DNA of 64,000 nt from contig JAIOOU010000003.1 of assembly GCA_021414245.1 (NCBI GenBank), positions 310,001-374,000 on the forward strand, read 5' to 3'. Under the pieces are notes generated by a model. That model saw only the letters and a list, made by a program, of their open reading frames with translations, ran no database searches and had not been told where the DNA came from. This stretch comes from Chloroflexota bacterium (GTDB taxonomy: Bacteria; Chloroflexota; Anaerolineae; Anaerolineales; Villigracilaceae). Positions 28,904 to 58,254 of this stretch are shown in pieces; the first letter of the stretch is position 1, and each line of letters opens with the position of its first letter. The position numbers and the translations under genes are program-made.

Positions 28904-28941
28904 TTAACATATTTTTATTCTGTGCTACTCTTGTCCCAGCC

Positions 28942-31487: not shown

Positions 31488-31502
31488 CCATTGGAGGTCC
31501 AA

Positions 31503-33370: not shown

Positions 33371-33371
33371 T

Positions 33372-43700: not shown

Positions 43701-46449
43701 AAAATATGCAGATCATCAGGATGATCTGATCCAGGGAATGACTGTGCCGGATGCGGTGCTTGAAGCCGCGGCTCAGGCCATATCGGCAAGAGGAACCGTG
43801 GCTCCGACCTTAACATCCACCAAGGCGCCGACCTCAACGCCCACGAAGAACAAAACAAAGGCACCCACTGCCACAAAGGCAAGGAAGCAAACCGCAACTG
43901 CGACTGCAACCAGGACCAGGGTGCCTACTGCAACTCCGACAAAAACAAGGACGCCGGTGGTTTCGCCAACAAAAACAAAAATTGCCACCAGTACGGCATC
44001 CCAAACGTCAACGGCGCCTGTTTCTCCATCAGCGACCTCAACAGCTACACCCACGTATACGGTGACAGTTGAACCGACCGGAACCCTCGATCCGGCGTTT
44101 TCTCCCGAACCGACTTCGAATGATCCAACCGCGACATTGCTTGTGGATGGCACTTCAACGGAAACGCTTGAGCCGACTGCAACAAATACGATCGAGCCCT
44201 CCCCGACTGCCACGGTTGAATTCACTGCAACGAATACAGCGGAATCAGCAGTGTCCCCGACAGTTGAATCCACAGCGACGATTGCCGTAGAGTCCACTGC
44301 CACCCATACGGCTGAACCGACCTCGACTGCAACTGCAAGCGCCATCCCCACATCGACTCCGACCGCCACGCTTCAGCCTACTGCTATTCCTGAACCTGTG
44401 GATCAACTGTCGATTACATTTAATTTCAAGGTTCGTAAGACCGGCATATATCGTGTCACCTACGAGACATTGCGCGATGCAGGCCTTGATCTGGCTGGCG
44501 TGCCGGGAACAAATATAACCCTCTATAATCAGGGGCGAACAGTGCCTGTTTATGTTCACCCGGACACGGATCTGTTCGGTCCTGGCGGATATATTGAGTT
44601 TTATGCCGAGGCTCTCGATACGAACTATACAGATACCAATATTTACACGCTTCAGGTAAGCAGTGCGCCGATCGGAAAGATACCGGATGTCGATGCCGGC
44701 CCCGGCCTTGATCTCACTTCGCCGCTTTCCTATACTGAGACCTTGCGGATCAATAATCAACGGGCTTATTCCAATTATGCCCCCGGGTCGGATGTTTGGT
44801 ATGACACCTCGATGCTGGCTTATACCACTCCAAAGAGCTGGAGTTTTACATTCCAAATCAGCGGGCTTGCTGACCCTGCCGCCACTGCGGATCTGGAGTT
44901 GGTGCTGTGGGGTGGGACCAACTGGCCGCAGAACCCTGATCATCATGTGGTCGTGAGCGTCAATGGCATTGCGCTGGCAGATCAGACTTTTGACGGATCC
45001 ATTGAAAAGACAATGAAGATTGCCCTTCCTGCCGGCACTCTCCATGAAGGATCCAATACACTTAAACTAACCCTGCCTGGGGATACCGGGGTTAGCTATG
45101 ATTTGATCAACCTCGATAAGTTCAGTGTCAAATACCAACGCTTGTTCAGGGCGCAGGATGGAAGATTAAACTTCACATCCACAGCTCAGGTGTTCAGTGT
45201 TGCCAATCTGCCCAGTGCAAATGTGGTGGTTTACCGCATGGATGATGCCGGATTGGTGCGTCTTGAAAATATCAATGTACAGGCCGCTGGTGGTTCTTAT
45301 ACTGCCACTTTTGCGGGAACGGACCATGCCTCGACCTATTGGGTGACAGCCACAGAGGCGCTCTACACTCCGGTTCTGGAAGCCACCCGCCTCAAGGTGG
45401 ACCTAAATCATGCCGCCCAATACCTCATCATTTCCCACCCTGATTTCATTTCTGGTCTGCAGCCTTTGATTCAGGCCCGTCAGGCACAGGGATTTACGGT
45501 CAGTGTGGTGGATGTAACCGACCTGTATACCCAGTATAGTTATGGCATATTCGACCCGCAAGCCATCAAAAAGTATATTAATTATGCCGCGAAAAACCTT
45601 GGGACTCAGTACGTGCTTCTGGTTGGCGGCGATACCTATGATTACCGAAATTATCTTGGCAGAAACAGCATTAGTTTCATTCCCTCCTTGTACGTAACCA
45701 CAGGTGACATTGCGAAGTTTGTCCCTGCAGATCCGCTTTATGCGGACCTGGACGGAAATAATGTGCCTGACCTTGCGATAGGGCGTTTCCCGGTTCGCAC
45801 GCAGGCCGAACTTGCCATGATCGTCAATAAAACACTGGCGTATGGGTCGAAGGATTATGGCCGCACTGCGGTGTTCGCCTCAGATGCTTATGATGGCGTC
45901 GTCTCATTCAAGGATATCAGCAACACGCTGGTAACGGGTTTGCCCGCGGACTGGTCCGCCCAAAGCATTCATCTTGATGATACAACGGTGACTCTTGCCC
46001 AGCAGCAATTGCTTTCTGCCATGAATGGCGGCACGGCCTTGGTTACTTTTACGGGCCATTCAGGGCCAACAACATGGACCTTCAGCAACCTGTTTACCAC
46101 GAAAAACGCTGCCGCCCTGACAAATGCCGGGCGTCCGTTTGTGGCGATCCAGTGGGGTTGCTGGAATACCTATTATGTTGACCCCGTAAATAATTATCTG
46201 GTCCAAAGCCTGCTGTTCTCCGGGGATAAGGGCGCGGCAGCTGTGATGGGAGCTTCCACTCTCACAGATTCTGATTCAGAGAAATTGCTCGGTGTTTTGC
46301 TCACTCCAAAGATGACGACCCCCGGCAAACCCATTGGCCTGGCTTTGCAGCAGGCAAAGTATGAACTGGCTCTTTCCCACCCTGAACTTTTGGATGTTTT
46401 ACTCGGCTGGAGTTTGATGGGTGATCCGGCTCTGGTCATTCAACCGTAG
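37783..46449 (+). CDS. Giant secreted SdrD-B repeat protein with C-terminal C25 gingipain-like peptidase
   Basis: ATG 37783 (GAAGGA at 37768-37773) gives 2,888 residues with a signal peptide ending at about ALA-SP (residue 33). In order: a beta-sandwich domain (about 40-200), an adhesin-like region (about 210-680), a DUF11-like domain, five SdrD-B repeats ('IGDFxWxDxDxDGxQD', starting near 820, 930, 1043, 1437 and 1562), a GEVED-like domain (about 1675-1848), a Thr/Pro linker (about 2005-2205) and a C25 peptidase domain (about 2206-2888). Catalytic His2759 (TGHSG) and Cys2793 (WGCWN) are present. No sorting signal or C-terminal helix is seen. The lasso cyclase starts 32 bases downstream, so it may share that operon. 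Confidence 0.88.
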   Translation: MHQSFSNHYNRPFIICVILLTVVYSTFALPQSALASPTYVLDNFTTAAYTNQNGTSNWAANWIETNDDGSATTGDVLVTAGALRLNNSVATAAFESVEREINMPINATATFTFDHTETNLEAGDNLVVEIYDGDTALWTTLQAFNGAVANASHTYDISAYRSANTRIRFRITGGYTVNNEFFNADNVRVDYWFPATHGSTSVFPTVQTYYIPVPEDQGLLMLDAVNADAVNPMVLYVSITVNSDDTIIYYDQWEDDFEAEVADPRQNTTEVWGDNNPANGIPPGYTSDVLVAGSIIILNNNVATTSLSLIDFDGGDKIASTDAISVTRTSWASGSGTLHGGSVEMLDTSVWGTRYDVPADAGDQANDFDYAGIAVMASQDNTQISRNGTFVATINEGQSYLFNDNVNGGDQITSSAPVQANFLTGDIGSNYESSWYTLYPYNLLSSSYYAPVDSTGAINTAVYLQNPGSSSITVHWTTTAGPQADVVVAAGATARVIMPNTGTAAHFYTGTGLTTDPHFQAISAINSGGQANDWGYTLIPANQLTQQAQVGWGVGRDPTSAVNPAEDGSPVWITPVGSGTMNVCIDYDGDALGALTDANGRNYDQLLSLGNLQRSKVYDSDGDQTGMLVYLCNGSETGNINKIAVAWGQDPATASAGAPGLDVGTSVPPLPNFTSIKGAELVIDLNSDTLFDVGETFEYQIQINNVGALPIPANTITVSDIVPAYTLYVPNSTSITNSFTGITTAIPDAGSTALPLDEGGYLIPQQLWIGEQFTVVFRVKIDASLPGLTRIQNNAVVNGLDLLYDPTVEILVQPPDLNSRIGDFIWLDLDGDGVQDAGEPGIPGVTVELQDGTCTPNSTCLTDVTDSNGEYGFPNLINNTYTVVVKSSSLPGGLTQTGDPDGTVNNQHTVVLTNLNKPYLTADFGYQGNVSIGDFVWYDIDQDGIQDGGAEVGLGGVAINLTWAGLDGNLATVADNLTFSTVTNSAGAYGFSQLPAGTYRVNLDETTLPTNYLQTTSDPLTLTSLAAGTNYTTADFGAALGATIGDYVWNDMDNDGVQDGTESGLSGVRVFIDANANGTYDVGELNSTTNANGGYTIAGLSAGTYSVRVDATTVPAGYTLTTANNPLSVTLSAGQVYTTADFGYRVNALSISKTSSAAGTTRPGNTITYTITATNNTGALQTGIAITDALPAGTTFVSGSVSGYKQFEYRDNYNTGGGYNQTAGLSDWSAQAWTENNDNNNSTTGTIFIAANELNMLNPTGDSIQRIIPGNLSGQAVSLEIDYRETGTWENTAGTDEFFVEVWNGTAWVAVISLQDDFGDPAAQIVDISSYANANTQIRIRSTADGSGAGDETVFVDYVRVYYTTNVVGGAIHSPSNIIIAGDNFALTPGQSMTVTYQVTVDNPVAGGLTAINNTVQITSTQQLTPQRATTTDNLMALISDFVWTDADIDGIQDAGELGRAGVVVNLLDSGGNPVDSDLNTAGIQPTTTTTNAGGLYSFIVPAGTYIIEFVKPSGYDISPADQGADDTKDSDASNSTSRTAAITVAAGATNTTVDAGLYSKGSISDFVWNDLDGDGVQDGGSEVGLAGVRVYIDSNANGSYDVGEPTSTTAAGGLYSIGNLAAGTYDVRVDTTTLPAGFVETYDLDGTGTLNRASVTVTAGQTRTDVDFGYQQPRNFGHLPSSYLGMNLLADGGAYHLTGSTYLGASVTTATDGINTATYTNKTSDDGVTWTPSVAWSVASGGSVNITVTCPSAPCYLNAWFDWNKDNDFNDAGEQIFTNRTVTNGLQTLTFSIPNIAVLDGSTLYSRFRIYPTQPVNPQPNGQAFALDGVTPLVGEIEDPFFQIVGGSVPTPVTVSYFYAVRDSKGRNGDTVTFNWSTATETGNVGFNIYVKSGQQLTQINKTLIPSRVIDSLDRQDYTFSGTVKGNTFFIEDVSVLGETERHGPFKLGEKYGSQMDADKINQAAVQAEHQKKYADHQDDLIQGMTVPDAVLEAAAQAISARGTVAPTLTSTKAPTSTPTKNKTKAPTATKARKQTATATATRTRVPTATPTKTRTPVVSPTKTKIATSTASQTSTAPVSPSATSTATPTYTVTVEPTGTLDPAFSPEPTSNDPTATLLVDGTSTETLEPTATNTIEPSPTATVEFTATNTAESAVSPTVESTATIAVESTATHTAEPTSTATASAIPTSTPTATLQPTAIPEPVDQLSITFNFKVRKTGIYRVTYETLRDAGLDLAGVPGTNITLYNQGRTVPVYVHPDTDLFGPGGYIEFYAEALDTNYTDTNIYTLQVSSAPIGKIPDVDAGPGLDLTSPLSYTETLRINNQRAYSNYAPGSDVWYDTSMLAYTTPKSWSFTFQISGLADPAATADLELVLWGGTNWPQNPDHHVVVSVNGIALADQTFDGSIEKTMKIALPAGTLHEGSNTLKLTLPGDTGVSYDLINLDKFSVKYQRLFRAQDGRLNFTSTAQVFSVANLPSANVVVYRMDDAGLVRLENINVQAAGGSYTATFAGTDHASTYWVTATEALYTPVLEATRLKVDLNHAAQYLIISHPDFISGLQPLIQARQAQGFTVSVVDVTDLYTQYSYGIFDPQAIKKYINYAAKNLGTQYVLLVGGDTYDYRNYLGRNSISFIPSLYVTTGDIAKFVPADPLYADLDGNNVPDLAIGRFPVRTQAELAMIVNKTLAYGSKDYGRTAVFASDAYDGVVSFKDISNTLVTGLPADWSAQSIHLDDTTVTLAQQQLLSAMNGGTALVTFTGHSGPTTWTFSNLFTTKNAAALTNAGRPFVAIQWGCWNTYYVDPVNNYLVQSLLFSGDKGAAAVMGASTLTDSDSEKLLGVLLTPKMTTPGKPIGLALQQAKYELALSHPELLDVLLGWSLMGDPALVIQP
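40237..42798 (+). repeat. Five SdrD-B repeats, with a DUF11 domain split by an inserted domain
   Basis: Repeats start near 40240, 40573, 40912, 42096 and 42471 and share the codons for a Gly/Ser-Asp-Phe/Tyr-x-Trp opening and a Ca-binding-like Asp-x-Asp-x-Asp-Gly loop. Between repeats 3 and 4 a DUF11-like domain begins at about 41220. It is interrupted at about 41395-41880 by a jelly-roll-like domain resembling the protein's own N-terminal domain (both end in a DYVRVYY / NVRVDYW strand), then resumes. Confidence 0.7.
43800..44397 (+). repeat. Thr/Pro/Ala-rich low-complexity coding repeat
   Basis: About 200 residues consist almost only of Thr, Pro, Ala, Ser, Val and Glu, with recurrent TPT, TAT and EPT units. 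It separates the GEVED-like part from the C25 domain. Such stretches serve as extended, often O-glycosylated stalks. Repetitive codons make the region prone to slippage and assembly error. Confidence 0.8.
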
Positions 46450-46480: not shown

Positions 46481-48319
46481 TTGAGTGCATTTGCTGTTTT
46501 ATTTGATCGATCCAGCGAACCGGATCCGCAGGTATTTAATGCCATGATGGGAAGATTGCGCCATCGCGGACCGGATGGATGCGATACCGCTTCAACAGCA
46601 AATGTCACCATGGGTCACTTCCATTTTTGGACCACCCCGGAAGAGATTGGTGAGCATCAGCCTCTTTCCGTGAACAGCTGGCCTTTTAAAATTGTCCTTG
46701 ATGGAAGGATCGATAATCGACAGGAACTCCTTGATCGATTGAGCATGCCCCTGGATGCCGGCAGGATATTGTCCGATGCGGCACTTATATTGCATGCCTA
46801 TGCCCGTTGGGGCGGGGATTGTTTTAAATACCTTGTCGGTGAATATGCATTGGCGCTCTTTGACGAACAACTCGGCGAACTCCTGGTGACCAGGGATGCG
46901 CTGGGAGATCGGACCGTGTTTTATTCGGTTCATGGGACGCGCGTTGCAGTTGCTTCTGAACCCTGGGCAGTTGCAGCCGCTGATGGTCTGCCTGTGCAGA
47001 TGAATGATGTTGCAGTGGCTCATTATTTCGCTTTGAGAGCATCCCCAAATGGTCAAACGATGTTCAAGCATGTGTATGAACTTTCTCCTGCAACCATCCT
47101 GGTGATCAATGCTGGCGGCGAGTACTCCCGCCAATACTGGCAGGCTGATCCAACGGTCCGATCGTCCGGCAAATCAGATGTGGATTATGCCGAGGAGTTT
47201 CTGTCCCTTCTGGAGCAAAGCGTACGTTGTCGCTTGCGGTCTCCGCTGCCCGTGGGGGTCATGATGAGTGGAGGGCTGGATTCAACATCGGTGGCCGCCA
47301 TGGCAGCGGGCATGATCGCGCCGGAAACGCTGACAACACTCTCATATGTCTTTGATGAATTGAAGGACTGTGATGAAAGAATATATATTGATGCTGTAAA
47401 AGAACGATGGTCAATCCGGTCGATCCAAATCTTGTGCGACGACGCCTGGCCGTACAGGGAGTGGGAAAAATGGACCCCGAATCCAAATGATCCGGCTGCA
47501 AACCCGTATTATTCCCTTCACGATCGTGTTTATGAACATGCGCGAGCGGAGGGGATCGGCGTTTTGCTGACCGGCAGTTTCGGTGACCATCTTTATAACG
47601 CAGCTTCCGAGTGGCTGGCCGATCTTGTTTTTGAAGGGCGCTGGTTGGATGCCTGTCGGCAATTAAACATCCAAATTCGCAGCAAGGGTTTTTCGCGGAC
47701 CTTGAGGGCTGTATATATTCGGGATGTGGCCAGGCGGGTTGTCAGGAAGTTTTCAGGCCTGCAAAATTCACACCCCGCTTCCTTTTCACCCGCATGGTTG
47801 ACAGATCATACAAAGGAGCTTCTTTCTTCGAAGGATGATTTGGCTGACCCGGTTTTGGAGCGGTATGATATCCTTCTAGGTTCGCTGACCGCCTATAGCT
47901 GCTCTCACGAATTTTTCAATCTCAGTCACTCAGGGCTTGAAATTCGCTCTCCGTATCGTGATCGTCGTTTGATAGAATATGTGATCACTCTTCCGGCATA
48001 TCAGTTGTATTCCCGGGGGCGCCACAAGCATATTTTGAGGAATGCAATGAAGGATATTCTTCCGGAATCTGTCCGGAACAGAACCCAGCCTACCTCAATG
48101 ATCCCATTGTTCGTTCGCGGTCTTGAGCGTGAAAAAGACAGTCTTCAACTTCGTGCTCTCGATCCGGATGCGGTCTGGCGAAAATATATAAAGGCTGACT
48201 GGCTTTTGACCCATTGGAATACGGGATTGGAACCGGACCAGGATGGGCCTGAAGCCATGGTGTTCTGGATGTGTAGTGCATTTGAAGCATGGCAAAAATC
48301 GATTTTTTCTTCCAATTAA
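46481..48319 (+). CDS. Lasso-peptide macrocyclase (asparagine-synthase-like, C protein)
   Basis: TTG 46481 is chosen because GAGGAA lies 6-7 bases upstream; longer starts run into the giant gene. The 612-residue protein has a glutaminase-like N-domain (about 1-200, 'RLRHRGPDGCDTAS') in which residue 2 is Ser, not the nucleophilic Cys, so ammonia release from Gln is unlikely. The synthetase domain has the ATP pyrophosphatase loop SGGLDS (263-268) and 'LLTGSFGDHLYN' in place of the usual GGxGGDE. Lasso C proteins adenylate the Asp/Glu side chain and close the ring. The precursor gene follows after 12 bases. Confidence 0.88.
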   Translation: MSAFAVLFDRSSEPDPQVFNAMMGRLRHRGPDGCDTASTANVTMGHFHFWTTPEEIGEHQPLSVNSWPFKIVLDGRIDNRQELLDRLSMPLDAGRILSDAALILHAYARWGGDCFKYLVGEYALALFDEQLGELLVTRDALGDRTVFYSVHGTRVAVASEPWAVAAADGLPVQMNDVAVAHYFALRASPNGQTMFKHVYELSPATILVINAGGEYSRQYWQADPTVRSSGKSDVDYAEEFLSLLEQSVRCRLRSPLPVGVMMSGGLDSTSVAAMAAGMIAPETLTTLSYVFDELKDCDERIYIDAVKERWSIRSIQILCDDAWPYREWEKWTPNPNDPAANPYYSLHDRVYEHARAEGIGVLLTGSFGDHLYNAASEWLADLVFEGRWLDACRQLNIQIRSKGFSRTLRAVYIRDVARRVVRKFSGLQNSHPASFSPAWLTDHTKELLSSKDDLADPVLERYDILLGSLTAYSCSHEFFNLSHSGLEIRSPYRDRRLIEYVITLPAYQLYSRGRHKHILRNAMKDILPESVRNRTQPTSMIPLFVRGLEREKDSLQLRALDPDAVWRKYIKADWLLTHWNTGLEPDQDGPEAMVFWMCSAFEAWQKSIFSSN

Positions 48320-48331
48320 TTTTAGGTGATT

Positions 48332-48523
48332 ATGTTTAGTAAATCTGATAATTCTATCTGCCCGGGGCGGGAAACCGATCCAGAGAGGGCCCCCTCCCGC
48401 AAACCATATGCCAAACCTGTTTTGGAAAAATTGGATGACCTCCGCGCGCTGACCCTGGGGGGCTCTCCCGGTATGGGCGATAGTGGACCGCTTCCCATTC
48501 CACAGGTCTCGAAACCATTTTAA
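48332..48523 (+). CDS. Lasso-peptide precursor (A peptide)
   Basis: From ATG 48332 (AGGTG just upstream) the peptide has 63 residues. The leader (1-42) contains Tyr26, Pro29 and Leu31 at positions -17, -14 and -12, and Thr41 at -2, the positions of the known YxxPxL...T leader signature; the usual Gly at -8 is Asp35. The core (43-63, 21 residues) starts GGSPGMGD, giving a Gly1-Asp8 ring. Its tail has prolines at 53, 55, 57 and 62 and ends in Phe63. Gene order A-K-B1-B2 after C supports the call. Ring size and topology are predicted, not shown. Confidence 0.88.
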   Translation: MFSKSDNSICPGRETDPERAPSRKPYAKPVLEKLDDLRALTLGGSPGMGDSGPLPIPQVSKPF

Positions 48524-48538
48524 GACCAGACTAGCTAT

Positions 48539-49399
48539 ATGTTCCATTATCATCCTGCAGGACAGGATTATCAATTTTCATTTCCGGTATCTGAACTTGA
48601 TCCATTTGAACCAGCGAATCGTGCTCCTTCTTTGACCCGGTCTTCTCTGGATGTTTTTTCAAACCGTGAACCGGTTTTGGTTTCCAGTTCGAAGGGATGG
48701 GTTGGCGGAGCGGAAAGAGTTGTGGAGGTATACGATACTGATCGCGGGAAGCAGCTGCAAGTCCAGGGATGCGGCCGGTTCTTCATCAACGAGGATGACG
48801 GGGAGATTGGTAAATTAAATCGACAGCTGGAATTTACGGATCTTGATCGTGAAATCCTGCTTGGCCCGGTGTTGGTCCTGGCTCTTGCGACCCGTGGAGT
48901 TTGGTGTCTTCATGCCAGCGCGGCAATGTTTCGGGACAAAGTGATTGTTTTTCTGGGGGAATCCGGTCGGGGAAAATCGACTCTTGCCGGATATTTGGCT
49001 CAGAATACGGAATGGCAGCTGGTTGCTGATGATATTCTTCCCGTAAGCATGGGTCGTGGAGAGGTGTTTGTGCTGCCGCACTTTCCACAACTAAAATATG
49101 CAAAGGACGCCCAGCCGGGTTCCCGTTTACCGGATCAACTTTCATTGAAGATGGTTTGTGAACTGAATCATGGTGGTTCAGATCAAATGCCCGCGCTTCA
49201 CTCTCTATCCGTGGCTGGAGCTGTTCATGCATGGCTGCGGAATACTGCAGGGGCCCGCATGTTTAATTCGCAACTGCTTGCAAAACATTTGGAGTTTTCA
49301 ACAAGGGCAGCCGAGCAACTCTCCGCATTTAAACTGGTTTATCCTCATCGGGAGAATGCCCTCGAGGAGACCAGGAGTATCCTCGAAAAACTATGTTGA
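48539..49399 (+). CDS. HprK-like kinase of lasso clusters (K protein)
   Basis: The 286-residue protein has a C-terminal kinase domain related to HPr kinase: 'GVWCLHASAAMFRDKVIVFLGESGRGKSTLAGYL' features with Walker A at 140-148, and 'WQLVADDILPV', whose Asp pair acts in catalysis. In the paeninodin type of lasso cluster a homologue (PadeK-like) phosphorylates the C-terminal Ser of the precursor. Here the precursor ends in Phe, with Ser only at core positions 3, 9 and 18, so the target may differ. It lacks the N-terminal domain and HPr signature of true HprK/P. It starts 15 bases after the precursor stop. Confidence 0.83.
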   Translation: MFHYHPAGQDYQFSFPVSELDPFEPANRAPSLTRSSLDVFSNREPVLVSSSKGWVGGAERVVEVYDTDRGKQLQVQGCGRFFINEDDGEIGKLNRQLEFTDLDREILLGPVLVLALATRGVWCLHASAAMFRDKVIVFLGESGRGKSTLAGYLAQNTEWQLVADDILPVSMGRGEVFVLPHFPQLKYAKDAQPGSRLPDQLSLKMVCELNHGGSDQMPALHSLSVAGAVHAWLRNTAGARMFNSQLLAKHLEFSTRAAEQLSAFKLVYPHRENALEETRSILEKLC

Positions 49400-49674
49400 C
49401 ACTCAACTCCAGGCTCCGTATACCGGCCCATGTTTCCTTTTCGGTGGTCGGGGAGGATGCCTTCCTGCTGAATACCCGTACGAACAAGTATTTTAGCCTG
49501 GCAAAAGTTGGCGCGCGCCTGTGGGAATTGTTGAATGCCGGTTCTTCGTTGCAGGATGGATTTCTACAGCTTTCGGCGGAATATGATGTCAGTCCGGCCC
49601 GGTTGGAGAATGATATATTGGAGTTGGTAAGGAATTTGGCGGAGAATGAACTTGTTGAGATTGTTCAGGACTAG
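49393..49674 (+). CDS. PqqD-like RiPP recognition element (lasso B1 protein)
   Basis: The 93-residue protein matches the PqqD fold: 'AFLLNTRTNKYFSLAKVGARLWELL', the conserved beta-wing and Tyr-x-Leu plus Gly-x-x-x-Trp helix, then 'VSPARLENDILELVRNLAENELVE'. In lasso systems B1 binds the leader through its Tyr/Pro motif and hands it to B2. The start overlaps the kinase stop by seven bases and its end overlaps B2 by 29 bases, so stoichiometric, coupled synthesis is likely. Confidence 0.9.
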   Translation: MLTLNSRLRIPAHVSFSVVGEDAFLLNTRTNKYFSLAKVGARLWELLNAGSSLQDGFLQLSAEYDVSPARLENDILELVRNLAENELVEIVQD

Positions 49675-50122
49675 ATTTGCGCAGGCCCGAAAACTTTCGT
49701 TTTCGGACTGGTTGATTCTTGCGGATGCATGGGTGTTGTTGGCTGGGATTCATGTGGCTCTCGGCCGGGTGAGCTATGAGCGCATGATGATTTCGGCCCC
49801 GCAGTCTTTGCGCGTTGCCTCTGATCCGGACGGCAAGGCCATGGCTCTTGCCGACAGGCTGCAATGGCTGGTGGAGTCCGCCGCGCGATTGCATTTATTC
49901 CGAGCCACCTGCCTTGTCAAGGCCATTGCCCTATTTAGAATTCTTGGCAAAAGAAACATCCCTGCCAGAGTTAGAATTGGAGCGCGCAGGATGGGTGCCT
50001 CGGTTTTTGCCCATGCCTGGGTGGAGGTCGATCAGAGGCCGGTGGGAGAGGCCGATGATATTGCCCAAAGATTTCCAATCCTTGAATTCTCCGCCGGTCC
50101 CGGCGGCCAGGTTTTCATATAA
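49646..50122 (+). CDS. Lasso leader peptidase (transglutaminase-like B2 protein)
   Basis: The 158-residue protein has the PF13471-type layout: an N-terminal helix pair, the nucleophile Cys89 in 'LFRATCLVKAIAL' and His123 in 'SVFAHAWVEVD'. A nearby Asp (129 or 137) could complete the Cys-His-Asp triad. B2 enzymes cut the leader after the Thr-x pair, here between Leu42 and Gly43 of the precursor. The size is normal for a stand-alone B2. The start within B1 is supported by GGAG close upstream, though spacing is short. Confidence 0.9.
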   Translation: MNLLRLFRTRFAQARKLSFSDWLILADAWVLLAGIHVALGRVSYERMMISAPQSLRVASDPDGKAMALADRLQWLVESAARLHLFRATCLVKAIALFRILGKRNIPARVRIGARRMGASVFAHAWVEVDQRPVGEADDIAQRFPILEFSAGPGGQVFI

Positions 50123-50130
50123 GACACGAT

Positions 50131-52713
50131 ATGTCTTCCGATTCGAATCAACTAAAAACGCTTAAATATATCCTGGAGAATTGTCTGCATCCGGAGCTTT
50201 TTGATTTGCACCCCTGGGCTCAACGTCCCTTTGTGATGGAAACCCTGGCCGAATTCCCCGATCAGGCGGGAAAAAATCCCAGCCGGCATCTGGTTGCGGC
50301 GTTGGCTGGATTGTTTGTTCAGATGATGCCGAGCACTCCACCCAAACATGGAAAACGTCTGGATACCCGTTGGGGGGAGTTCGGGATTTTAGCCGCGCAA
50401 TATTTTGCGCCGTTGTTGTATGGAGCGCCCTTTCCGGCCTCTTTACGGGATGCATGGGGGCGGATTGATGAAAGCATTCTTTACTTCATTTCTGCCAATC
50501 AGGGAATTCCGGTCTCCCAGGAGGAAAAGGAAACCTATAAGTTGGTTGGAAATGAATTGGAAATTGCCCCCAACAGTACCATCAGCGACTGGCATAGAAA
50601 AGGATTGCAGCGGTTGAATGACTTGATCACGGCCAGGGAAAACTATCTGTCCGCTTCTTTGTCGGCAAAAAATAAGAACCTGTCGGACGAACAGCTGAAG
50701 GTTGGGGAGGAATCGCCTCCCAAGTCCGCGGAAAGAGTTCCGAAAACCAGAAAAATCCGGCCTGGCGGCCGTCGTGTAAGGGTCCTGCTGGTAGTACTGT
50801 TTGTGGTCAGTCTTTTGTTGGCAGGCGGGCTCAAAGCCTGGAAAATCTATGGTCTTGCCCAACAGGTTCGAATGGATGCATTGGGTCTGCGGGAAATAAT
50901 CGCAGGCCCGGCGCCGCGATTGGAAAAAATGGAGGAAATTGGCCCGGCTCTAAAAACCTTGAGAAAAGATTTTTCGAGACTTAAAGCCCAGGTAGAGCCA
51001 TTTTTTTGGATCGGACCCTGGATGAGCTGGGTGCCGGTCCATGGGAATGACCTGGTTTCCATTGAAGATCTCGCCGTGCTTGCTGATTCCATGCTGGCGG
51101 CCGGGGATTATACGTATCAGGCGGCCTTGCCGGCTCTGACCGATAACGATCTGGCCAGTCTTGACCCGGCCCGCCTGACCGAATTGTTGAATCAAGCCAG
51201 GCCGAGGCTGTTGGATTCCCGGAATGCGCTGGACCAGGCTGTGGCGGCGCGCGGCCGTTTGACGACTGGTGATCTTTCGCCTGAGATAAGGGACTTGATT
51301 ATCAATGATCTCGATCCAGTAATTGCCTTGATGGGAGATGGATTGACGGTTGCCCTGGCGTTCCCGCGTCTGATGGGCGCAAGTGAGGAAGGACCAAAAA
51401 CCTATCTCCTTTTGGTTCAGAACGAGGATGAATTAAGACCCACCGGCGGCTTTATCACCGCCGCAGGCACACTGCTGGTAAAGGATGGCCGCATCAGCAG
51501 CTTGAATTTTAAAAGTTCGGAGTACTTTGATAATTGGGATAAGCCCTATCCGGTTGCCCCGTGGCAGCTGAGTCAATATATGAACAGCCGGGTTTTGATC
51601 TTTCGTGATGCAAACTGGTTTACCAATTATCCAACCGCGGCCCTGTATGCCGAATACCTTTATTCCTATACAAGCGATCATTCCGTTGACGGAGTCATTG
51701 CATTTGACCAGCAGATGCTTGTCAAGGTGTTGAGCGCCACCGGACCCATTAAGGTGGAAGGTGTGCCCTACCCGATTGACGCTGCCAATGTGGTCGACTA
51801 TATGAGAGAGGCCAAAACACCCACGCCCGAAGATCTTGCCTCGCCCGATTGGAACAATAAAGTATTTATTAATAAAATTTCCCGCGCCTTGATCTCCAAA
51901 ATCTTCAGCGGGGATGTGGAATGGGATCAGCTCTCAAAAGTGCTGCTGGACTCATTGAATGAACATCATTTGTTGATCCAGCTGGATGACCCGGAGATGA
52001 CCTCCCTCCTGAAGCGTTTTCACTGGGACGGCTCGGTCCGCCCCGGGAATGGTGATTTTTTAATGGTCGTGGATTCAAATATCGGATTTAATAAAACCAA
52101 TGCTGTCGTGGAATCCAGCATATCTTATGATGTTGATCTGGCCAAATTGCAATCTCCCACCGCCTCCCTGACGATTTTTCATAAAAACAATGCGGAGGAA
52201 ATCGTTTTTTGCAAACATTGGAACAAGGTCCGGGCGGAAGGGGAACAGGGCTATCCGATCACAGACTGCTATTGGAACTACCTGCGTGTTTATATGAAGG
52301 AAAGGACAAGGCTCTTGGATGCAACCCCCCAGGTGGTGCCTGACAATTGGATGATCCTGAAACAGAAAAATCCCGGGCAGGTGGATATCCTGAAGGAGGA
52401 GATCGATGGGGTTCAGGCTTTTGGCACGCTGCAGGTTTTGCTGGGCGGACAATCCCTTTCGACCACTTTTCATTTTGCCCTGCCTGCAGATATTTTAAGT
52501 ATGCAGCCGGATTCGGATCATGTGGATTATCATCTTAAAATTCAGAAACAGCCCGGCACCCTTGGCGTCCCGATCACCATCCGCATTCATCTTCCCAAGG
52601 GCACGCTGATTCAATCTTCCCCGTCCGAAGCAATTGTTCAGGGGAACAGCATCCTTTACAAGACAGATCTGACCACTGACATTGAAATAGACGTTGTCTT
52701 TTCTCCGCCCTAA
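50131..52713 (+). CDS. DUF4012 membrane protein with unknown cytoplasmic N-domain
   Basis: The 860-residue protein has a cytoplasmic region (about 1-200, Lys-rich towards the end), one membrane helix (about 214-237) and a large outer part with the DUF4012 domain ('YLLLVQNEDELRPTGGFITAAG', about 424-600 and beyond). DUF4012 proteins occur in surface-polysaccharide and wall loci of Chloroflexota and Actinobacteria; their function is unknown to me. The first 160 residues match nothing I know. The gene starts eight bases after B2, so it may be the last member of the lasso operon. Confidence 0.78.
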   Translation: MSSDSNQLKTLKYILENCLHPELFDLHPWAQRPFVMETLAEFPDQAGKNPSRHLVAALAGLFVQMMPSTPPKHGKRLDTRWGEFGILAAQYFAPLLYGAPFPASLRDAWGRIDESILYFISANQGIPVSQEEKETYKLVGNELEIAPNSTISDWHRKGLQRLNDLITARENYLSASLSAKNKNLSDEQLKVGEESPPKSAERVPKTRKIRPGGRRVRVLLVVLFVVSLLLAGGLKAWKIYGLAQQVRMDALGLREIIAGPAPRLEKMEEIGPALKTLRKDFSRLKAQVEPFFWIGPWMSWVPVHGNDLVSIEDLAVLADSMLAAGDYTYQAALPALTDNDLASLDPARLTELLNQARPRLLDSRNALDQAVAARGRLTTGDLSPEIRDLIINDLDPVIALMGDGLTVALAFPRLMGASEEGPKTYLLLVQNEDELRPTGGFITAAGTLLVKDGRISSLNFKSSEYFDNWDKPYPVAPWQLSQYMNSRVLIFRDANWFTNYPTAALYAEYLYSYTSDHSVDGVIAFDQQMLVKVLSATGPIKVEGVPYPIDAANVVDYMREAKTPTPEDLASPDWNNKVFINKISRALISKIFSGDVEWDQLSKVLLDSLNEHHLLIQLDDPEMTSLLKRFHWDGSVRPGNGDFLMVVDSNIGFNKTNAVVESSISYDVDLAKLQSPTASLTIFHKNNAEEIVFCKHWNKVRAEGEQGYPITDCYWNYLRVYMKERTRLLDATPQVVPDNWMILKQKNPGQVDILKEEIDGVQAFGTLQVLLGGQSLSTTFHFALPADILSMQPDSDHVDYHLKIQKQPGTLGVPITIRIHLPKGTLIQSSPSEAIVQGNSILYKTDLTTDIEIDVVFSPP

Positions 52714-52797
52714 ATCCAAATCCGTTTCAAATCCGAAGCTGAATGCCGGCTTTTGGACTTAGAATGAACGGGTATTTATGCAAACAGGAGTAGTTGA

Positions 52798-53829
52798 ATG
52801 AAAAAGTATCTTAAATTTTTGGCAGTTCCCGGATTTGTAATTGCCATTCTTGGAGCTGCGTGGAATGCTCCGGTTTGGGCAAGTTCCACGGATTCATTAA
52901 GCCAGCCTTCGGCGGACTTCCAGCCGCTTTCGGAGATTACTATTACCGAATCCGGCAGTTACACCGTGGGCGGCCTTTGTCAATTGAATGTCGTTTACAC
53001 ACATACAGGTGCAAGTGTGAAGGCTGCCATTGATGTGCCTGCAAGCGAGTCCCGAAAGGTACCTTATTCCTATGATGATGAACTTTACCTTGCCGGATGC
53101 CATATTGTTCATTACACAAAAGGGGAGGTCACGCCGGAAATAAGCCCGGCGTATGGTAGCTGGGAGGTATGTTTTGGCGACCGCCCGGATATGCAGTTGA
53201 CCGTTTATTATTATGCCGATCAACCTGAAAGCGGTTCAGCAGTTTGGCTGCCCCTGACCACAACCTTGAAGGATGGTTTTGCCTGTGCTCCTGCCAATTT
53301 CAGCGGAGTATATGCCCCGGGCGGCAGGCGCATTACAACGGCCGGCGGACCCGGTTCTGATGACGGAGTGGTGACAACGGATACGGCTGGCGGCACCGTC
53401 CGGCCGCCGTCAGCAGATTTGACCGTCACGGAATCCGGAGCTTATGCGGTTGGGGGTGTTTGTACGATGATCGTGGATTACAAAGTGCCCAATCTTGCGA
53501 CCGGCATCCATGTTGAGGGAAATGTTGAGATATCGGCAAATGTCCCTTATCCGGACAATGAGGGGTTGCTCTATCTTCCCGGTTGTCATGTATTTCATTA
53601 TAAAGAGTCAAAATTGGTTACGGATGTGACTCCGGATGAAGGCGATTGGAAGATATGTTTTGCCGCCATTCCAAACAAGGAGACCACCATCTATTTTTAT
53701 TATGCAAATGATGATGCTCCGAAGTCGGCCAAACCGGATTGGGCTCCTCTTGAGACGACCGTTGAAAATGGAATGGCATGCGCACCTTTGACCGACCACA
53801 CGGGAGTTTATGCCCCAACCGGTAAATAG
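52798..53829 (+). CDS. Secreted protein of two tandem Cys-rich repeats
   Basis: AGGAG at 52786-52790 supports ATG 52798. The 343-residue protein has a signal peptide (about 1-28, ending AAWNAPVWA-S). Two similar units follow (about 45-180 and 205-343). Each has 'TESGxYxVGGxC', 'GCHxxHY', 'W(E/K)(V/I)CF' and 'ACAP', so four Cys at matching positions that could make two disulfides per unit, and each ends in 'GVYAP'. I recognise no family. A terminator follows, so it ends a transcription unit. An extracellular binding or structural role is a guess. Confidence 0.75.
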   Translation: MKKYLKFLAVPGFVIAILGAAWNAPVWASSTDSLSQPSADFQPLSEITITESGSYTVGGLCQLNVVYTHTGASVKAAIDVPASESRKVPYSYDDELYLAGCHIVHYTKGEVTPEISPAYGSWEVCFGDRPDMQLTVYYYADQPESGSAVWLPLTTTLKDGFACAPANFSGVYAPGGRRITTAGGPGSDDGVVTTDTAGGTVRPPSADLTVTESGAYAVGGVCTMIVDYKVPNLATGIHVEGNVEISANVPYPDNEGLLYLPGCHVFHYKESKLVTDVTPDEGDWKICFAAIPNKETTIYFYYANDDAPKSAKPDWAPLETTVENGMACAPLTDHTGVYAPTGK

Positions 53830-53854
53830 AATTAAGCCAATGTTCAAATCAATG

Positions 53855-53893
53855 CGGCAGGACAGGACGACGGTCTTTGTCCTGCCGTTATTT
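53855..53893 (+). terminator. Rho-independent terminator after the Cys-rich secreted protein
   Basis: CGGCAGGACA (53855-53864) and TGTCCTGCCG (53878-53887) form a perfect 10-base stem with a 13-base loop, followed by TTATTT. It ends only five bases before the next ATG (53898), so any promoter for that gene must lie within or before the hairpin, or expression depends on read-through. Confidence 0.75.
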
Positions 53894-53897
53894 AACC

Positions 53898-55412
53898 ATG
53901 AAGAACACGGATAATTTTTTTCGGTTTGTTCCCCCGGGTATTCTGGCGGTCTCCCTTGGTCTGGTCTACTTGAACAGCATGGCACCCGGGTTGACATGGG
54001 CAAATTACGGATCGGACGGCGGGGATTTGATTACAGCAGCAGCGACTGGTGGGGTGGCTCACCCGACCGGATATCCGGTTTATCTCGTGCTTGCCTGGCT
54101 GTTTCAAAAAATTCCGTTAGGTTCCCTTGCCTATAGGACCAGCCTGCTCTCCGCGGTGGCGACTGTGCTGGCCGCTTTGTTTGTTTATGAACTGACGATC
54201 CGGTCCTTCTTAACGCGGGGAGGTTCCCGCGACTGGTTAAGTGGTCTGGCTTCAGCTTTTGCTTTCGGTCTTTCACCCCTGATCTGGTCTCAAGCCGTGA
54301 TCACGGAAGTCTATGCTTTGCACGCATTATTTATAACCCTCATCCTTTATTTATCCTCAAACGGACTCTTTTCGAATGAGCCCGGAAAATACCGGGGTTG
54401 TGTGTTCGGATTTGTGTTTGGCCTGGCAATGGGAAATCATATTACGACTGTTCTGCTTTTGCCAATCCTCGTTGCTCCGGGGCCCGTTCGCATTGTGGAT
54501 GCCCCTGAATTAAATCGTGAACCGTTCTCGGGATATCCTGCAAATCTCCGAGCGCGATTGATGGGTTTGGGGGTTGGGCTTCTTGTCTATCTGATTTTGC
54601 CTTTGCGCGCCCTTTTTCAACCGGCCCTAAACTGGGGAAATCCCTCAACACTTCGCGGTTTTGCCTGGCTGGTTACTGGACAACTCTACCAAAACCAGAT
54701 CTCCGGCCTGTCACTTTCAGAAATTTGGCCAAGAGTTCAGTCGAGTGCGGCCCTGTTGGTTGGTCAGTTTGGGATACCCGGTCTGGTCGTCGGTTTGATC
54801 GGTTTGTTGGTTTTCCCCCAGACATCGAGTTTATATCGAAATACGTTATGGGCTGCCCTGGTGTTCGCCCTGTTTGCGATTGTGTATGCGACTGCTGATT
54901 CCTTTGTGTATTTAATACCTGTTTTTATGTGCTTTTCGATCTGGATCGGTTTTGGGCTGAATGGCTTGATGGAAATGACTGGATTGCGATCTTCCCGGCT
55001 TGGGATTGCAGCAGGAATTTTCTTCCTTTTCTTCCTCTGGATGTATGCAGGAAAAAATTGGCATCAAGTGGATGCCTCCCGGGATTTCCGGGCGGAGCGA
55101 TTCGGCGAGCAGATCCTTGTGAAAGCTCCTGAAAATGCGATCGTGTTTGCGAAAGGGGACAAGGCCGTCTTTACTTTGTGGTATTTTCACTTAGCCCTTA
55201 AAAAACGCCCGGACCTGATTGTTGTGGCATCCGACCTGCTTCATTTTGATTGGTATCAAAAATCCCTGCTTGGGACGTATCCGCAATTGAACCTGCCCGG
55301 TCCTTTTCCTTTTACAGAAACTGTGGTTTTGGCCAATTCAGCGCATCCCGTTTGTTACGTTGAATATATTCAATTGCCGGATATCCTCTGTCCATCCCCC
55401 AGGGGACCCTGA
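53898..55412 (+). CDS. DUF2723 membrane glycosyltransferase-like protein
   Basis: From ATG 53898 the protein has 504 residues; a TTG seven codons upstream lies inside the terminator stem and was rejected. It has about ten to eleven hydrophobic segments. The motif 'APGLTWANYGSDGGDLITAAATGGVAHPTGYPVY' features, read in parts at about 27-60, mark DUF2723 (GT117-like, protein O-mannosyltransferase-type GT-C fold), with the acidic pair in the first outer loop. A soluble C-terminal part holds 'ENAIVFAKGDKAVFTLWYF'. It may glycosylate a secreted protein such as the Thr-rich ones here; that is inference. Confidence 0.85.
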   Translation: MKNTDNFFRFVPPGILAVSLGLVYLNSMAPGLTWANYGSDGGDLITAAATGGVAHPTGYPVYLVLAWLFQKIPLGSLAYRTSLLSAVATVLAALFVYELTIRSFLTRGGSRDWLSGLASAFAFGLSPLIWSQAVITEVYALHALFITLILYLSSNGLFSNEPGKYRGCVFGFVFGLAMGNHITTVLLLPILVAPGPVRIVDAPELNREPFSGYPANLRARLMGLGVGLLVYLILPLRALFQPALNWGNPSTLRGFAWLVTGQLYQNQISGLSLSEIWPRVQSSAALLVGQFGIPGLVVGLIGLLVFPQTSSLYRNTLWAALVFALFAIVYATADSFVYLIPVFMCFSIWIGFGLNGLMEMTGLRSSRLGIAAGIFFLFFLWMYAGKNWHQVDASRDFRAERFGEQILVKAPENAIVFAKGDKAVFTLWYFHLALKKRPDLIVVASDLLHFDWYQKSLLGTYPQLNLPGPFPFTETVVLANSAHPVCYVEYIQLPDILCPSPRGP

Positions 55413-55472: not shown

Positions 55473-56462
55473 TTAATTCTCATTCTCGATCATCTCCAAA
55501 AATAACGTGGTCAGCGCGGGATCGAAATGGGAACCGCTTTGGGTGCGAATATATTCCAGTGCCTCCGGTCTGCGCATTGCATTTCGATAGGGCCGATCCG
55601 AACGAAGCGCATCCCAAACATCCACCAGGGCAAAAAGACGGGCTGCAATGGGTATTTCCGCGCCTTTCAAACCTTGTGGATATCCACTGCCATCCCATTT
55701 TTCATGGTGACAATAGGGAATGTCGATTGCAGGCTGGAGATAATCAATAGGCAGGATCATCTCCCGGGCGTATTGGGGGTGCATTTTCATGATTCGCCAT
55801 TCCTCTTCGGTTAATTTGTCGGGCTTGAACAAAATGGCATCGGGAACGCCGAGTTTTCCAATGTCGTGCAGGAGGGAGCCGCGCCGGATATGTATTAATT
55901 CAGTGTCGCTCATTCCGGCCAGCCGGGCAAGCTTTTCGGTCAGGGTGGTGACTCGCTGGGTATGGCCCTCCGTTTCCTTGTCGCGAAGATCCATTGCACG
56001 AGACCAGCCTTCGATTGTGGCATCATATGCAGACAACAACTGTTGATGGGCTTGCTCAATGTTGATGCGATCATCCAGTAACTTTCGATAACGGTTTAAT
56101 CGGGTGATGCCGAGCAGCCTGGCCCGCAATTCATGCCTGTCATAGGGTTTCGTGATGTAATCGTCTGCGCCGCTTTCAAGCCCGATCATGAAGGACTGCC
56201 GGTCGTCCAGCGCGGTGAGCATGATGATCGGGATCTCTGCCAGGGAAACATCGCTCCTGATCCTCCTGCACACTTCAAATCCGTCCATGCCCGGCATCAT
56301 GACATCCAGCAGGATGACATCCGGCTGGATGTCACGTGCCTTGATCAGCGCCTCGTGGCCGTTTCCTGCTGTTTCAAGCTGATAGCCCTGTCCCTCCAAA
56401 ATGGACTCAAGGGTGTGCCTTCCGGCTGGTTCATCATCTACGATTAAGATTATGCTTGGCAT
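55473..56462 (-). CDS. Response regulator with HD-GYP domain
   Basis: ATG 56462 is chosen because AAGGAG lies six bases upstream; a Met six codons earlier lacks this. The 329-residue protein has a receiver domain (about 1-120, 'ILIVDDEPAGRHTLE', phospho-Asp in 'VILLDVMMPGMDG') and an HD-GYP domain (about 150-325) with 'LLHDIGKLG', 'HHEKWDGSGYPQG' and the metal-ligand His/Asp set. HD-GYP proteins hydrolyse c-di-GMP. A terminator lies between it and the NarL gene upstream, so it may have its own promoter or depend on read-through. c-di-GMP output would fit control of the surface polymers. Confidence 0.92.
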   Translation of the reverse strand: MPSIILIVDDEPAGRHTLESILEGQGYQLETAGNGHEALIKARDIQPDVILLDVMMPGMDGFEVCRRIRSDVSLAEIPIIMLTALDDRQSFMIGLESGADDYITKPYDRHELRARLLGITRLNRYRKLLDDRINIEQAHQQLLSAYDATIEGWSRAMDLRDKETEGHTQRVTTLTEKLARLAGMSDTELIHIRRGSLLHDIGKLGVPDAILFKPDKLTEEEWRIMKMHPQYAREMILPIDYLQPAIDIPYCHHEKWDGSGYPQGLKGAEIPIAARLFALVDVWDALRSDRPYRNAMRRPEALEYIRTQSGSHFDPALTTLFLEMIENEN

Positions 56463-56479
56463 AATTGCTCCTTGTTTCA

Positions 56480-56515
56480 AAACAAAATGGCAGGAGACCG
56501 CAGGCGTCTCCCGCC
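56480..56515 (-). terminator. Intrinsic terminator of the NarL-type regulator gene
   Basis: On the minus strand a stem GGCGGGAGAC / GTCTCCTGCC (56515 down to 56489, one mismatch) is followed by ATTTTGTTT (56488-56480). It lies between the NarL-type gene and the HD-GYP gene. Confidence 0.7.
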
Positions 56516-56536
56516 CCGGATCCGTCCATTTTTATG

Positions 56537-57187
56537 CTATAGATTCTTGTCGATCAAGCCGTGTTTGATGGCCAGCCTCACCAGCCCGGCCAGATTGCGG
56601 ACATGTAGTTTTTCCATGAGATTTGCGCGATGTTTTTCAACCGTTTTTTCGCTGATGAAAAGAAGTTTTCCGATCTCGCTACTGGTATGTTCCTCGGCGA
56701 TCAATTGAAGGATCTCCTTCTCACGGGGGGATAGAACAAACAATGGGTCCCCCGCTTCAGTTGCATGCGGATGGATCGCGCTTTCCACCACAATGGATGA
56801 AATGACGGTGCTCAGGTAGGTTTCCCCCCGGGCGACCGCGCGGATGGCCCACAGTAATTCCTCGCTGACGGATGTCTTCAGTACGTAGCCTTTCACACCG
56901 CTGTGCAGAGCCTGGTGTACCAGTCCTTCATCTGAATACATGGACAATAACAGGATGTTGACCGGCAATTTCAGGTCACGGATTTGTTCGGCTGCCTGTA
57001 TGCCGTTCAGACGGGGCATCATGATGTCCATGACGATCACATCCGGTTTCAATTCGGTGGCCAGATCGATGGCTTCCTGCCCATTGGCGCCTTCGCCGAT
57101 GATATTAATATCGCTGGCGCGCTCAAGCAGGGCATGTAATCCGGCCCTGACCATGGAATGGTCATCCACCAGGAGGATTCGGATCAT
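56537..57187 (-). CDS. NarL/FixJ-type response regulator
   Basis: The 216-residue protein has a receiver domain (about 1-120, 'RILLVDDHSMVRAGL', phospho-Asp in 'DVIVMDIMMPRLNG') and a LuxR-type HTH (about 150-212, 'LSPREKEILQLIAE', 'SEIGKLLFISEKTVEKHRANL'). It overlaps the upstream sensor by four bases, and that sensor has a HisKA_3 domain, the normal partner of NarL regulators. So they form a cognate pair with high likelihood. Targets are unknown. Confidence 0.93.
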   Translation of the reverse strand: MIRILLVDDHSMVRAGLHALLERASDINIIGEGANGQEAIDLATELKPDVIVMDIMMPRLNGIQAAEQIRDLKLPVNILLLSMYSDEGLVHQALHSGVKGYVLKTSVSEELLWAIRAVARGETYLSTVISSIVVESAIHPHATEAGDPLFVLSPREKEILQLIAEEHTSSEIGKLLFISEKTVEKHRANLMEKLHVRNLAGLVRLAIKHGLIDKNL

Positions 57188-58254
57188 GTTTCCTCCCTGA
57201 GCGGATGAATATTTTCCAGCGGCAGACGGGCGGTCAAAATGGTGCCATTCGTCGCAGATGACCTGATCTCCAAATCACCGTCCACAATCATCAAGCGTTC
57301 TTTTAACCCGAGAATTCCAAGCCCGTTCCGGGATTTATCCCCATCGGTTGCAAAGCCGACGCCGTTATCCTGAATCGTCAGGATTATGCAGACATCCTCG
57401 ATCGTCAATTCCACCCATACCTGACTTGCAGAGGAATGCTTGATCACGTTTGTGAGGGCTTCCTGCAGGATGCGATAAAGCGTGATGGAATATACGGCAG
57501 ACATCTCCGGGAGAGTTGCGGCAGCCTCAAATACGACCGGCAATCCCGTGCGCAGGCTGAATTCGCGGCTGTATGTTTCAAGAGCCGAACGCAGTCCCAG
57601 TGTGTCCAATAGTGTTGGGCGCAGATCCTGTGCAAGCGCATGCATTTTTTTGATGGTCTGGCTGGTATCGGCGATCAACACGTCCAGTTTTTCGATTAAT
57701 AACTCTGGCCGCATGGGCAGTTCAGATTGCAGGTTGCGCAGGCTTAACGTATGGGCAATCAAGACCTGCCCAAGGTCGTCGTGTAATTCACGTGAAAGCC
57801 TGATCCTTTCCTCCTCCTGTGCGTTGACAACCCGTTCGGCCATCAGTCGCAGATCATCCCGTTGAGTGAGCAAGGTGCGATAACGGTTGAGGCGCGTGAT
57901 GGTGCCCACGCGCAAACGCAGTTCCTGCCGGTCCACTGGTTTGCTGAGGAAATCGTCTGCACCGGATTCTATGCCGAGCAGCCGCGAGGAGCGGTCATCC
58001 AGGGCGGTGAGAATAATGATCGGCACTTCGGCAAGTTTCGGCGTAGACCGGATGCGGCGGCATACTTCAAATCCATCCATGCCGGGCATCATCACGTCCA
58101 GCAAAATCAAGTCCGGCTGTAGTTGATCCGCCATTCGTAATGCAGTGGCTCCGTTGTCGGCAGACGAGATTTCATAGTTTTGACCATCCAGGATCGACGA
58201 CAGGGTTTCCATGCTAAGTGCATCGTCGTCAACAAGCAGGATTTTACTTTTCAT
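57184..58254 (-). CDS. Receiver-histidine kinase fusion (HisKA_3 type)
   Basis: ATG 58254 (AGGGAG seven bases upstream) gives 356 residues. A receiver domain (about 1-120, phospho-Asp in 'LILLDVMMPGMDG') comes first, then a HisKA_3 domain with the phospho-His in 'RLSRELHDDLGQVL' (about 160), and a HATPase domain (about 260-352) with 'LTNVIKHSSASQVWVELT' and 'DNGVGFATDGDKSRNGLGILGL'. There is no sensor or membrane domain. Its input is therefore likely a phosphoryl group from the large hybrid kinase just upstream, with output to the NarL regulator, forming a relay. Confidence 0.92.
   Translation of the reverse strand: MKSKILLVDDDALSMETLSSILDGQNYEISSADNGATALRMADQLQPDLILLDVMMPGMDGFEVCRRIRSTPKLAEVPIIILTALDDRSSRLLGIESGADDFLSKPVDRQELRLRVGTITRLNRYRTLLTQRDDLRLMAERVVNAQEEERIRLSRELHDDLGQVLIAHTLSLRNLQSELPMRPELLIEKLDVLIADTSQTIKKMHALAQDLRPTLLDTLGLRSALETYSREFSLRTGLPVVFEAAATLPEMSAVYSITLYRILQEALTNVIKHSSASQVWVELTIEDVCIILTIQDNGVGFATDGDKSRNGLGILGLKERLMIVDGDLEIRSSATNGTILTARLPLENIHPLREET

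Follow-up and report, generated by a model that had tools for sequence, protein, structure and literature searches.

The window analysed here comprises 64,000 nucleotides from a Chloroflexota bacterium of the family Villigracilaceae (assembly GCA_021414245.1, contig JAIOOU010000003.1, positions 310,001 to 374,000), and it encodes on its plus strand a lasso peptide gene set next to the gene for a giant protein with a gingipain-type (C25) protease domain. The lasso set consists of C, the gene for an asparagine-synthetase-like lasso cyclase (46481–48319, TTG start, with an in-frame GTG at 46421 as alternative start), A for the precursor (48332–48523), K for a peptide kinase of the HprK/PEPCK fold (48539–49399), B1 for a PqqD-like leader-binding protein (49393–49674) that represents the RiPP recognition element (RRE; RiPP, ribosomally synthesized and post-translationally modified peptide), and B2 for the lasso leader peptidase (49646–50122). 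The initial annotation, made from the DNA letters alone, had described this contiguous set C-A-K-B1-B2, and all five genes were found at these positions on the plus strand and matched to their families. The five-gene extent that it gave covers only part of the unit, which reaches upstream over the C25 gene (37672–46449, plus strand) and N (36317–37516, plus strand). The 399-aa product of N, encoded directly upstream of the C25 gene, is nucleotidyltransferase-like (PF14907, Pfam E 6e-47). Judged by its sequence, the window contains an operon-like unit of the order N-C25-C-A-K-B1-B2.

Against the NCBIfam model for lasso B2, the B2 protein scores 73.9 bits, which is above the cut-off of 33 bits, and B1 matches PqqD in Pfam and NCBIfam with 55.3 bits (cut-off 23.4 bits). 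The C protein carries Asn_synthase and GATase domains and has the lasso cyclase as its top NCBIfam family, at 373 bits and thus under the cut-off of 525 bits; with this qualification for C, the genes C, B1 and B2 adjoin the precursor as in a lasso cluster. The Cys-His pair of B2, which the initial annotation had proposed as a check, is present in 17/17 aligned copies, including that of the window, and the SGGLDS motif of C is found in 16/16 aligned copies, in all of which the residue after the start is Ser and not Cys. The source genome encodes a single lasso B2 and one further Asn_synthase protein, the latter on a different contig. The initial annotation had pointed to few described lasso peptides from this phylum; lasso genes are common enough in the class, with B2 above the cut-off in 67 of 396 sampled genomes.

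The 63-residue precursor has the leader residues Tyr -17, Pro -14, Leu -12 and Thr -2, just as initially described. Its 42-residue leader (48332–48457) additionally contains Arg -5 and Leu -1, and is followed by the 21-residue core GGSPGMGDSGPLPIPQVSKPF (48458–48520), in which Gly1 and Asp8 would form an eight-residue ring, and in which Ser3 and Ser9 are conserved. All hallmarks of a lasso precursor, i.e., a YxxPxL leader, Thr at -2, a small first core residue and Asp at position 8, are therefore found in the window.

The C25 protein (2925 aa) contains SdrD_B repeats, DUF11 and GEVED domains, a Thr/Pro-rich linker and a C-terminal Peptidase C25 domain, as determined by a Pfam domain scan. Its N-terminus resembles a signal peptide when inspected by eye, as do those of many complete homologous open reading frames (ORFs), and the protein is apparently secreted. 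The catalytic domain (45421–46446, plus strand, residues 2584–2925 of the protein; Pfam E 1e-70) is supported by Pfam, structure match and alignment of its copies. Its predicted structure (mean predicted local distance difference test, pLDDT, of 93) matches gingipain R best (Z 39.7, 312 residues, 2.2 Å), followed by gingipain K (Z 36.5) and PorU (Z 18.7). The window domain shares the full catalytic fold and the catalytic His and Cys with gingipains R and K, and His213 and Cys247 are invariant in 42/42 aligned copies. It differs from both in that sequence identity is only about 19%, that the position of the Arg-binding Asp is not conserved, and that it terminates a giant SdrD_B/DUF11 protein. 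Where gingipain R carries its Arg-binding Asp (Asp163 of RgpB), the aligned residue of the window domain is also Asp. We know of no lasso partner for gingipains. A role of the C25 protease as a substitute for B2 was rejected, since lasso B2 occurs somewhere in 20/22 family genomes and in 18 of the 25 genomes tested from the C25-alignment scan described below.

Genes for C25 and for lasso peptide biosynthesis are tightly associated within the family (G and L numbers denote genomes and loci). A search of 152 family genomes with K returned 36 genomes at E 1e-3, 22 of them strong (E 1e-30 or better), and the C25 domain was found in 19 of the 152, in 22 copies comprising that of the window and 21 others at 63–78% identity. 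All 19 C25 genomes are strong K genomes, and only three strong K genomes (G507, G525 and G527) lack C25 (Fisher p 2e-21, kinship ignored). The C25 copy adjoins A, C or K in 20/22 cases, the exceptions being G007:C1 (L104) and the second copy of G522 (L106). ORF clustering of 21 loci placed the giant ORF within the lasso genes or adjacent to them in 18, including the window. The order C-A-K-B1-B2 is uninterrupted in 11 of the 21 family-precursor loci (window included in the 21), the C25 gene separates C from A in two (L047/L110 and L094), and the set is incomplete or reshuffled in the other eight, some of which lie at contig ends (L048, L087, L088, L089, L090, L096, L099 and L101). By genome, G019 and G473 have the C25 gene placed between C and A, and in G206 it is flanked by C and K. 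A second C25 copy of G019 is followed by a second precursor (L105), and no lasso enzyme was found there in the 12 kb fetched.

C25 domains are generally common in the class (218/396 sampled genomes at E 1e-10), but copies of at least 49% identity occur in only eight of the 396, while the copies of G312 reach 39–45%. Lasso B2 is present in all nine of these genomes. Five of the eight lie outside the family, and in each of these five A and C adjoin C25 directly (L133, L134, L136, L137 and L138), which is not the case at the C25 loci of G312 (L139–L141). A precursor profile detected 11 of the 396 genomes at E 1e-3, i.e., the eight C25 genomes and the weak cases G117, G118 and G211. The family precursor is thus found in 8/8 class genomes with C25 of at least 49% identity versus three weak cases in the other 388. 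Two other lasso sets of the class (L053 of G117 and L150 of G235) contain or adjoin a C25 gene from another subfamily.

The C25-alignment scan of named species genomes extends this picture beyond the class. The best 80 of 112 confirmed stretches were resolved into 78 loci, a list thus cut off toward remote C25 copies; 53 of these loci carry a C25 of 38–78% identity, and 36 of the 53 have A and/or C adjoining. Going by record titles, the lasso-linked loci belong to Chloroflexi/Anaerolineae-type organisms (26, of which 17 are organisms of the earlier samples), Acidobacteria (6) and Proteobacteria (4). At remoter C25 loci (25–32% identity), A or C adjoins in 2/25 and any lasso gene in 3/25. Several gene orders are seen: C25-C-A-K-B1-B2, C-C25-A-K-B1-B2, C25-A-C-K, C25-A-C-C25-K and C-A-K-C25; part or the whole of the lasso set in L200 and L206 runs antiparallel to C25. 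When ten unlinked C25 loci were traced to their genomes, the family precursor was present elsewhere in seven (G559 [G007 by its coordinates], G561, G562, G563, G565, G566 and G567). The C25 and lasso genes are genetic partners across phyla. Among the remote loci, C25 lies near C and K in L242 and L244 and near B1 and K in L225 (26–27% identity; Desulforapulum and Acidobacteria records), and the link may therefore be older or recurrent.

Surface-polysaccharide genes, including those for a sugar transferase, a GDP-Man dehydratase-like protein, DegT and Wzz, are located upstream (28678–35288), and a DUF4012 gene and a gene for a TMEM260-like O-mannosyltransferase downstream (50131–55412). The latter enzyme is a possible candidate for glycosylating the Thr/Pro-rich stalk in the C25 protein. 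Further downstream, the minus strand encodes a group of response regulators and sensor kinases (55476–63931), among them one rich in PAS domains. Of the ORFs scanned with Pfam in 28678–63931, which do not include a 216-aa ORF at 56540–57187, none was recognised as a transporter gene.

Its proximity to polysaccharide genes, Wzz and DUF4012 raises the question of whether the lasso set encodes an ordinary exported antibiotic or signal that merely travels with a surface-protein and polysaccharide locus and has no functional link to C25. Several downstream neighbours are indeed shared between family loci, such as the DUF4012 gene in 11/21. This explanation is nevertheless improbable, given that C25 and lasso genes occur together in other phyla despite differing gene orders, that the precursor persists in most of the traced genomes with an unlinked C25, and that the lasso genes of G019, G473 and G206 even enclose the C25 gene.

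The precursors themselves form a conserved family. From the family loci, 21 precursors were read, including that of the window, and Tyr -17, Pro -14, Leu -12, Thr -2, Leu -1 and Gly1 occur in 21/21, although the read-out pattern itself required Tyr, Pro, an L-type residue and Thr. The 20 further precursors from genus and family that share the motif each match the window precursor in tblastn (E 0.002 or better), and the motif is therefore more than a chance occurrence. Asp or Glu is found at position 8 or 9 in 20/21, Ser or Thr at position 3 in 21/21, and Ser directly after the acceptor in 19/20. Across 44 precursors whose genomes encode this C25, the leader is conserved at Tyr -17 (44), Pro -14 (44), Leu -12 (40), Gly -8 (43), Arg -5 (41), Thr -2 (42) and Leu or Met -1 (43), and the core at position 1 (Gly in 39, Ser in 4, Ala in 1), Ser/Thr3 (43), Gly5 (38) and the Asp/Glu acceptor at 8 or 9 (43), which is followed by Ser or Thr in 42/43. 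The conservation of positions -2, 1 and 8, which the initial annotation had also singled out for checking, is thus confirmed, and the predicted Gly1-Asp8 ring is supported. The ring consensus is roughly G-G-S-P-G-x-G-[DE]-S-G and is kept across phyla, while the tails are variable. The core had been called new-looking, which applies to its individual tail; its ring belongs to a conserved family present in at least three phyla. Family cores are 16 to 48 residues long, with predicted tails of 8 to 40 residues (21 precursors), and 11 of the 44 predicted cores exceed 33 residues, the total length that a review gives for the longest-tailed lasso example (PMC13352647). Near lasso-type genes in L148, L153 and L165, small ORFs were seen whose leader-like part reads W..P.[LV] and ends in TESG, TASG or TETG; they perhaps constitute another peptide family.

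Gene K shows only weak matches to HprK-type models in Pfam and NCBIfam, and its assignment relies on motifs and predicted structure. The His, the P-loop GxSGxGKS and the Asp-Asp pair are invariant in 21/21 family copies and in 28/28 of a wider set, and correspond to the kinase motif listed by Duan et al. 2023 (PMC10368454). The model (mean pLDDT 93) retrieves PEPCK and HprK folds in structure searches. A scan of named species genomes with K alone gave no matches. The initial annotation had implied an ordinary lasso peptide with a kinase, which proved incomplete, as the window core and 41/44 precursors lack the C-terminal Ser that such kinases usually target. PadeK, ThcoK and SyanK target such a Ser (PMC9266682), but none of the 21 family precursors and only 3/44 overall end in Ser, and the window core ends in Phe; a C-terminal Ser was therefore rejected as target of K. 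BsfK, on the other hand, phosphorylates Ser3 of the core with the assistance of B1, and one natural relative carries Thr3 (PMC10368454). Because of this precedent and the presence of Ser or Thr at position 3 in 43/44 precursors, Ser3 is the best guess, and K probably acts on this ring residue by analogy with BsfK; Ser9 is the alternative site. The sole precursor of the 44 lacking Ser or Thr at position 3 is that of L200 (Holophagae), in which Asp3 replaces Ser and possibly mimics a phosphate.

The cluster as such is of a known kind. Like the bsf cluster of Bradymonas sediminis, it contains A, B1, B2, C, K and an N gene, predicts a Gly1-Asp8 ring, and shares the kinase motif of BsfK and the conserved Ser3 (Thr3 in one relative), as described in PMC10368454. 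According to the same source, bsf differs by having Ile instead of Thr at -2 and an ABC transporter, and its core (GTSGNEVD...) has little in common with the present cores beyond Gly1, Ser3 and Asp8. The paeninodin, ThcoK and SyanK systems also combine a lasso set with an HprK-like kinase acting on the precursor, but in the descriptions given in PMC9266682 they use the C-terminal Ser discussed above. In pseudomycoidin, the kinase gene psmK is accompanied by psmN, a nucleotidyltransferase-like gene that was linked to a hexose on phosphoserine (PMC9266682), and N resembles PsmN by description. Homologues of N with PF14907 are found near other lasso genes of the class (L050, L088, L143, L148, L168 and others), and a phosphate plus hexose on the peptide is possible by analogy. 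Pseudomycoidin differs in its C-terminal Ser target and, in the part of its description available to us (PMC9266682), in having no C25 link. A literature search of open-licence papers, which is weak evidence, returned no paper that links lasso peptides to gingipains or C25 or that prints this ring. As far as this search can tell, neither the partnership with C25 nor the ring family spanning several phyla has been described.

From these features, a pathway can be proposed in which B1 would bind the leader of the precursor, K would phosphorylate the core, most likely on ring Ser3, B2 would cut off the leader after Leu -1, and C would close Gly1 onto Asp8 to yield a lasso peptide with an eight-residue ring. 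Leader removal and ring closure at these residues are predicted from what is known of the lasso family, and N may attach a sugar to the phosphate. The monoisotopic masses calculated for these forms are 2024.004 for the linear core, 2005.993 for the lasso peptide, 2085.959 for its phosphorylated form and 2248.012 with one hexose added. Alternatively, the phosphorylated product would stay unthreaded, as a branched macrolactam or, for some family members, as a linear phosphopeptide. Genome G022 retains C25 along with A, K, B1 and B2, but the precursor (GTSTGGGW..., L048, G022:C53) has no Asp or Glu at positions 7–9, and no close relative of C was found in this draft genome (best 31% identity; genome 87% complete), a state that would reflect either decay or a linear phosphopeptide. 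The draft genomes G472 and G527 likewise show no C at E 1e-20, though their precursors have an acceptor. Such an unthreaded product is very improbable, since an acceptor at 8 or 9 is found in 43/44 precursors and C adjoins A in most loci of sufficient length.

The explanation that we favour, with some reserve, is that the phosphorylated lasso peptide is a dedicated partner or ligand of the co-encoded C25 protease. The conserved ring would most likely be the part that meets the conserved C25 domain, because ring and catalytic domain are co-conserved while the tails vary, because a C25-precursor pair exists without adjoining enzymes (L105), and because no transporter was recognised in the scanned stretch. 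The peptide would then inhibit or regulate the C25 protease encoded upstream, comparable to the cytosolic guards of some secreted cysteine proteases. Inhibition is the least certain step of this proposal, plausible yet rather open to doubt. Secretion of the protease, threading of the peptide, phosphorylation of Ser3 and contact between ring and protease are all predicted. In staphostatin-staphopain operons, a secreted cysteine protease is co-transcribed with a small guard inhibitor, and staphostatin is an unmodified protein. The comparison is an analogy only, as the candidate inhibitor would here be a RiPP.

The strongest competitor of this partner hypothesis reverses the roles, such that C25 would act on the exported peptide, either trimming its variable tail or cutting the ring or loop to end a signal. 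The invariant catalytic Cys and His fit a C25 protease that cleaves, and the wide range of predicted tail lengths in the family would suit tail trimming; no conserved cleavage-like motif was noticed in the tails by eye, and Arg specificity of C25 is unsupported. Leader Arg -5 tracks the presence of C25, occurring in 41/44 precursors of C25 genomes versus 3/16 other lasso precursors (Fisher p 5e-8, kinship ignored), yet the leader is expected to be removed in the cytosol by the widely retained B2, so that a leader residue would hardly serve a secreted protease. On balance, the peptide as substrate of C25 appears unlikely, though worth serious consideration.

The comparison set for Arg -5 consisted of 14 pattern matches judged by hand to be genuine precursors, together with L092 and L096, the C25-less family precursors, neither of which has Arg -5. 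Arg -5 is likewise absent from all dropped pattern matches, which were, in the first set, those of L010 (two), L052 (two chance hits), L138 (the second), L145 and L146 and, in the second set, those of L148 (all), L153 (both), L165 (both), L160 and L158 (the first). Arg -5 as a cleavage site of C25 was rejected and only a correlation retained, because of the cytosolic location of the leader and the variable Arg-pocket residue of C25, and because Arg -5 is present without this C25 in L161 (twice, counted by the spacing from Tyr) and L167 and absent in the C25-linked L195, L200 and L206.

Several observations weigh against the peptide as a dedicated ligand of C25. Given the strong variation of the tails, the peptide may have a different target than C25, and linkage cannot separate an inhibitor from a substrate. 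The Arg-pocket position of C25 is Asp in only 9/42 copies and does not indicate a cleavage specificity. Within the family, G525 and G527 have precursor and kinase but no C25, and G527 also shows no C; in the class, G312, with its C25 of 39–45% identity, shows no family precursor, and the profile used there was built from K-positive family genomes, which biases it toward C25-linked precursors. Among the 53 nearer C25 loci of the named species, 17 have no adjoining A or C, five of which have less than 1.4 kb downstream of C25, and a search at E 0.01 revealed no family precursor in the lone-C25 genomes G560, G564 and G568.

If the partner hypothesis is correct, this would be, to our knowledge, the first lasso peptide that natively targets a protease of its own operon. 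What most lasso peptides do for their producers is, as far as we know, largely unclear; here, the genetics points to a candidate partner protein, which turns lasso function into a direct question of binding and enzyme activity. It would also link the regulation of gingipain-type proteases to a peptide scaffold that is well studied. The presence of C25 beside A and C provides a genome-mining handle that can be used across phyla, and the conserved rings carrying tails of widely differing length constitute a natural series. In its widest form, which we put forward tentatively and which may well prove too broad, the proposal is that a cross-phylum family of ring-phosphorylated lasso peptides controls co-encoded, giant, secreted gingipain-type proteases, that their conserved ring fits the protease domain, and that the phosphate, perhaps with a sugar, switches or tunes this control.

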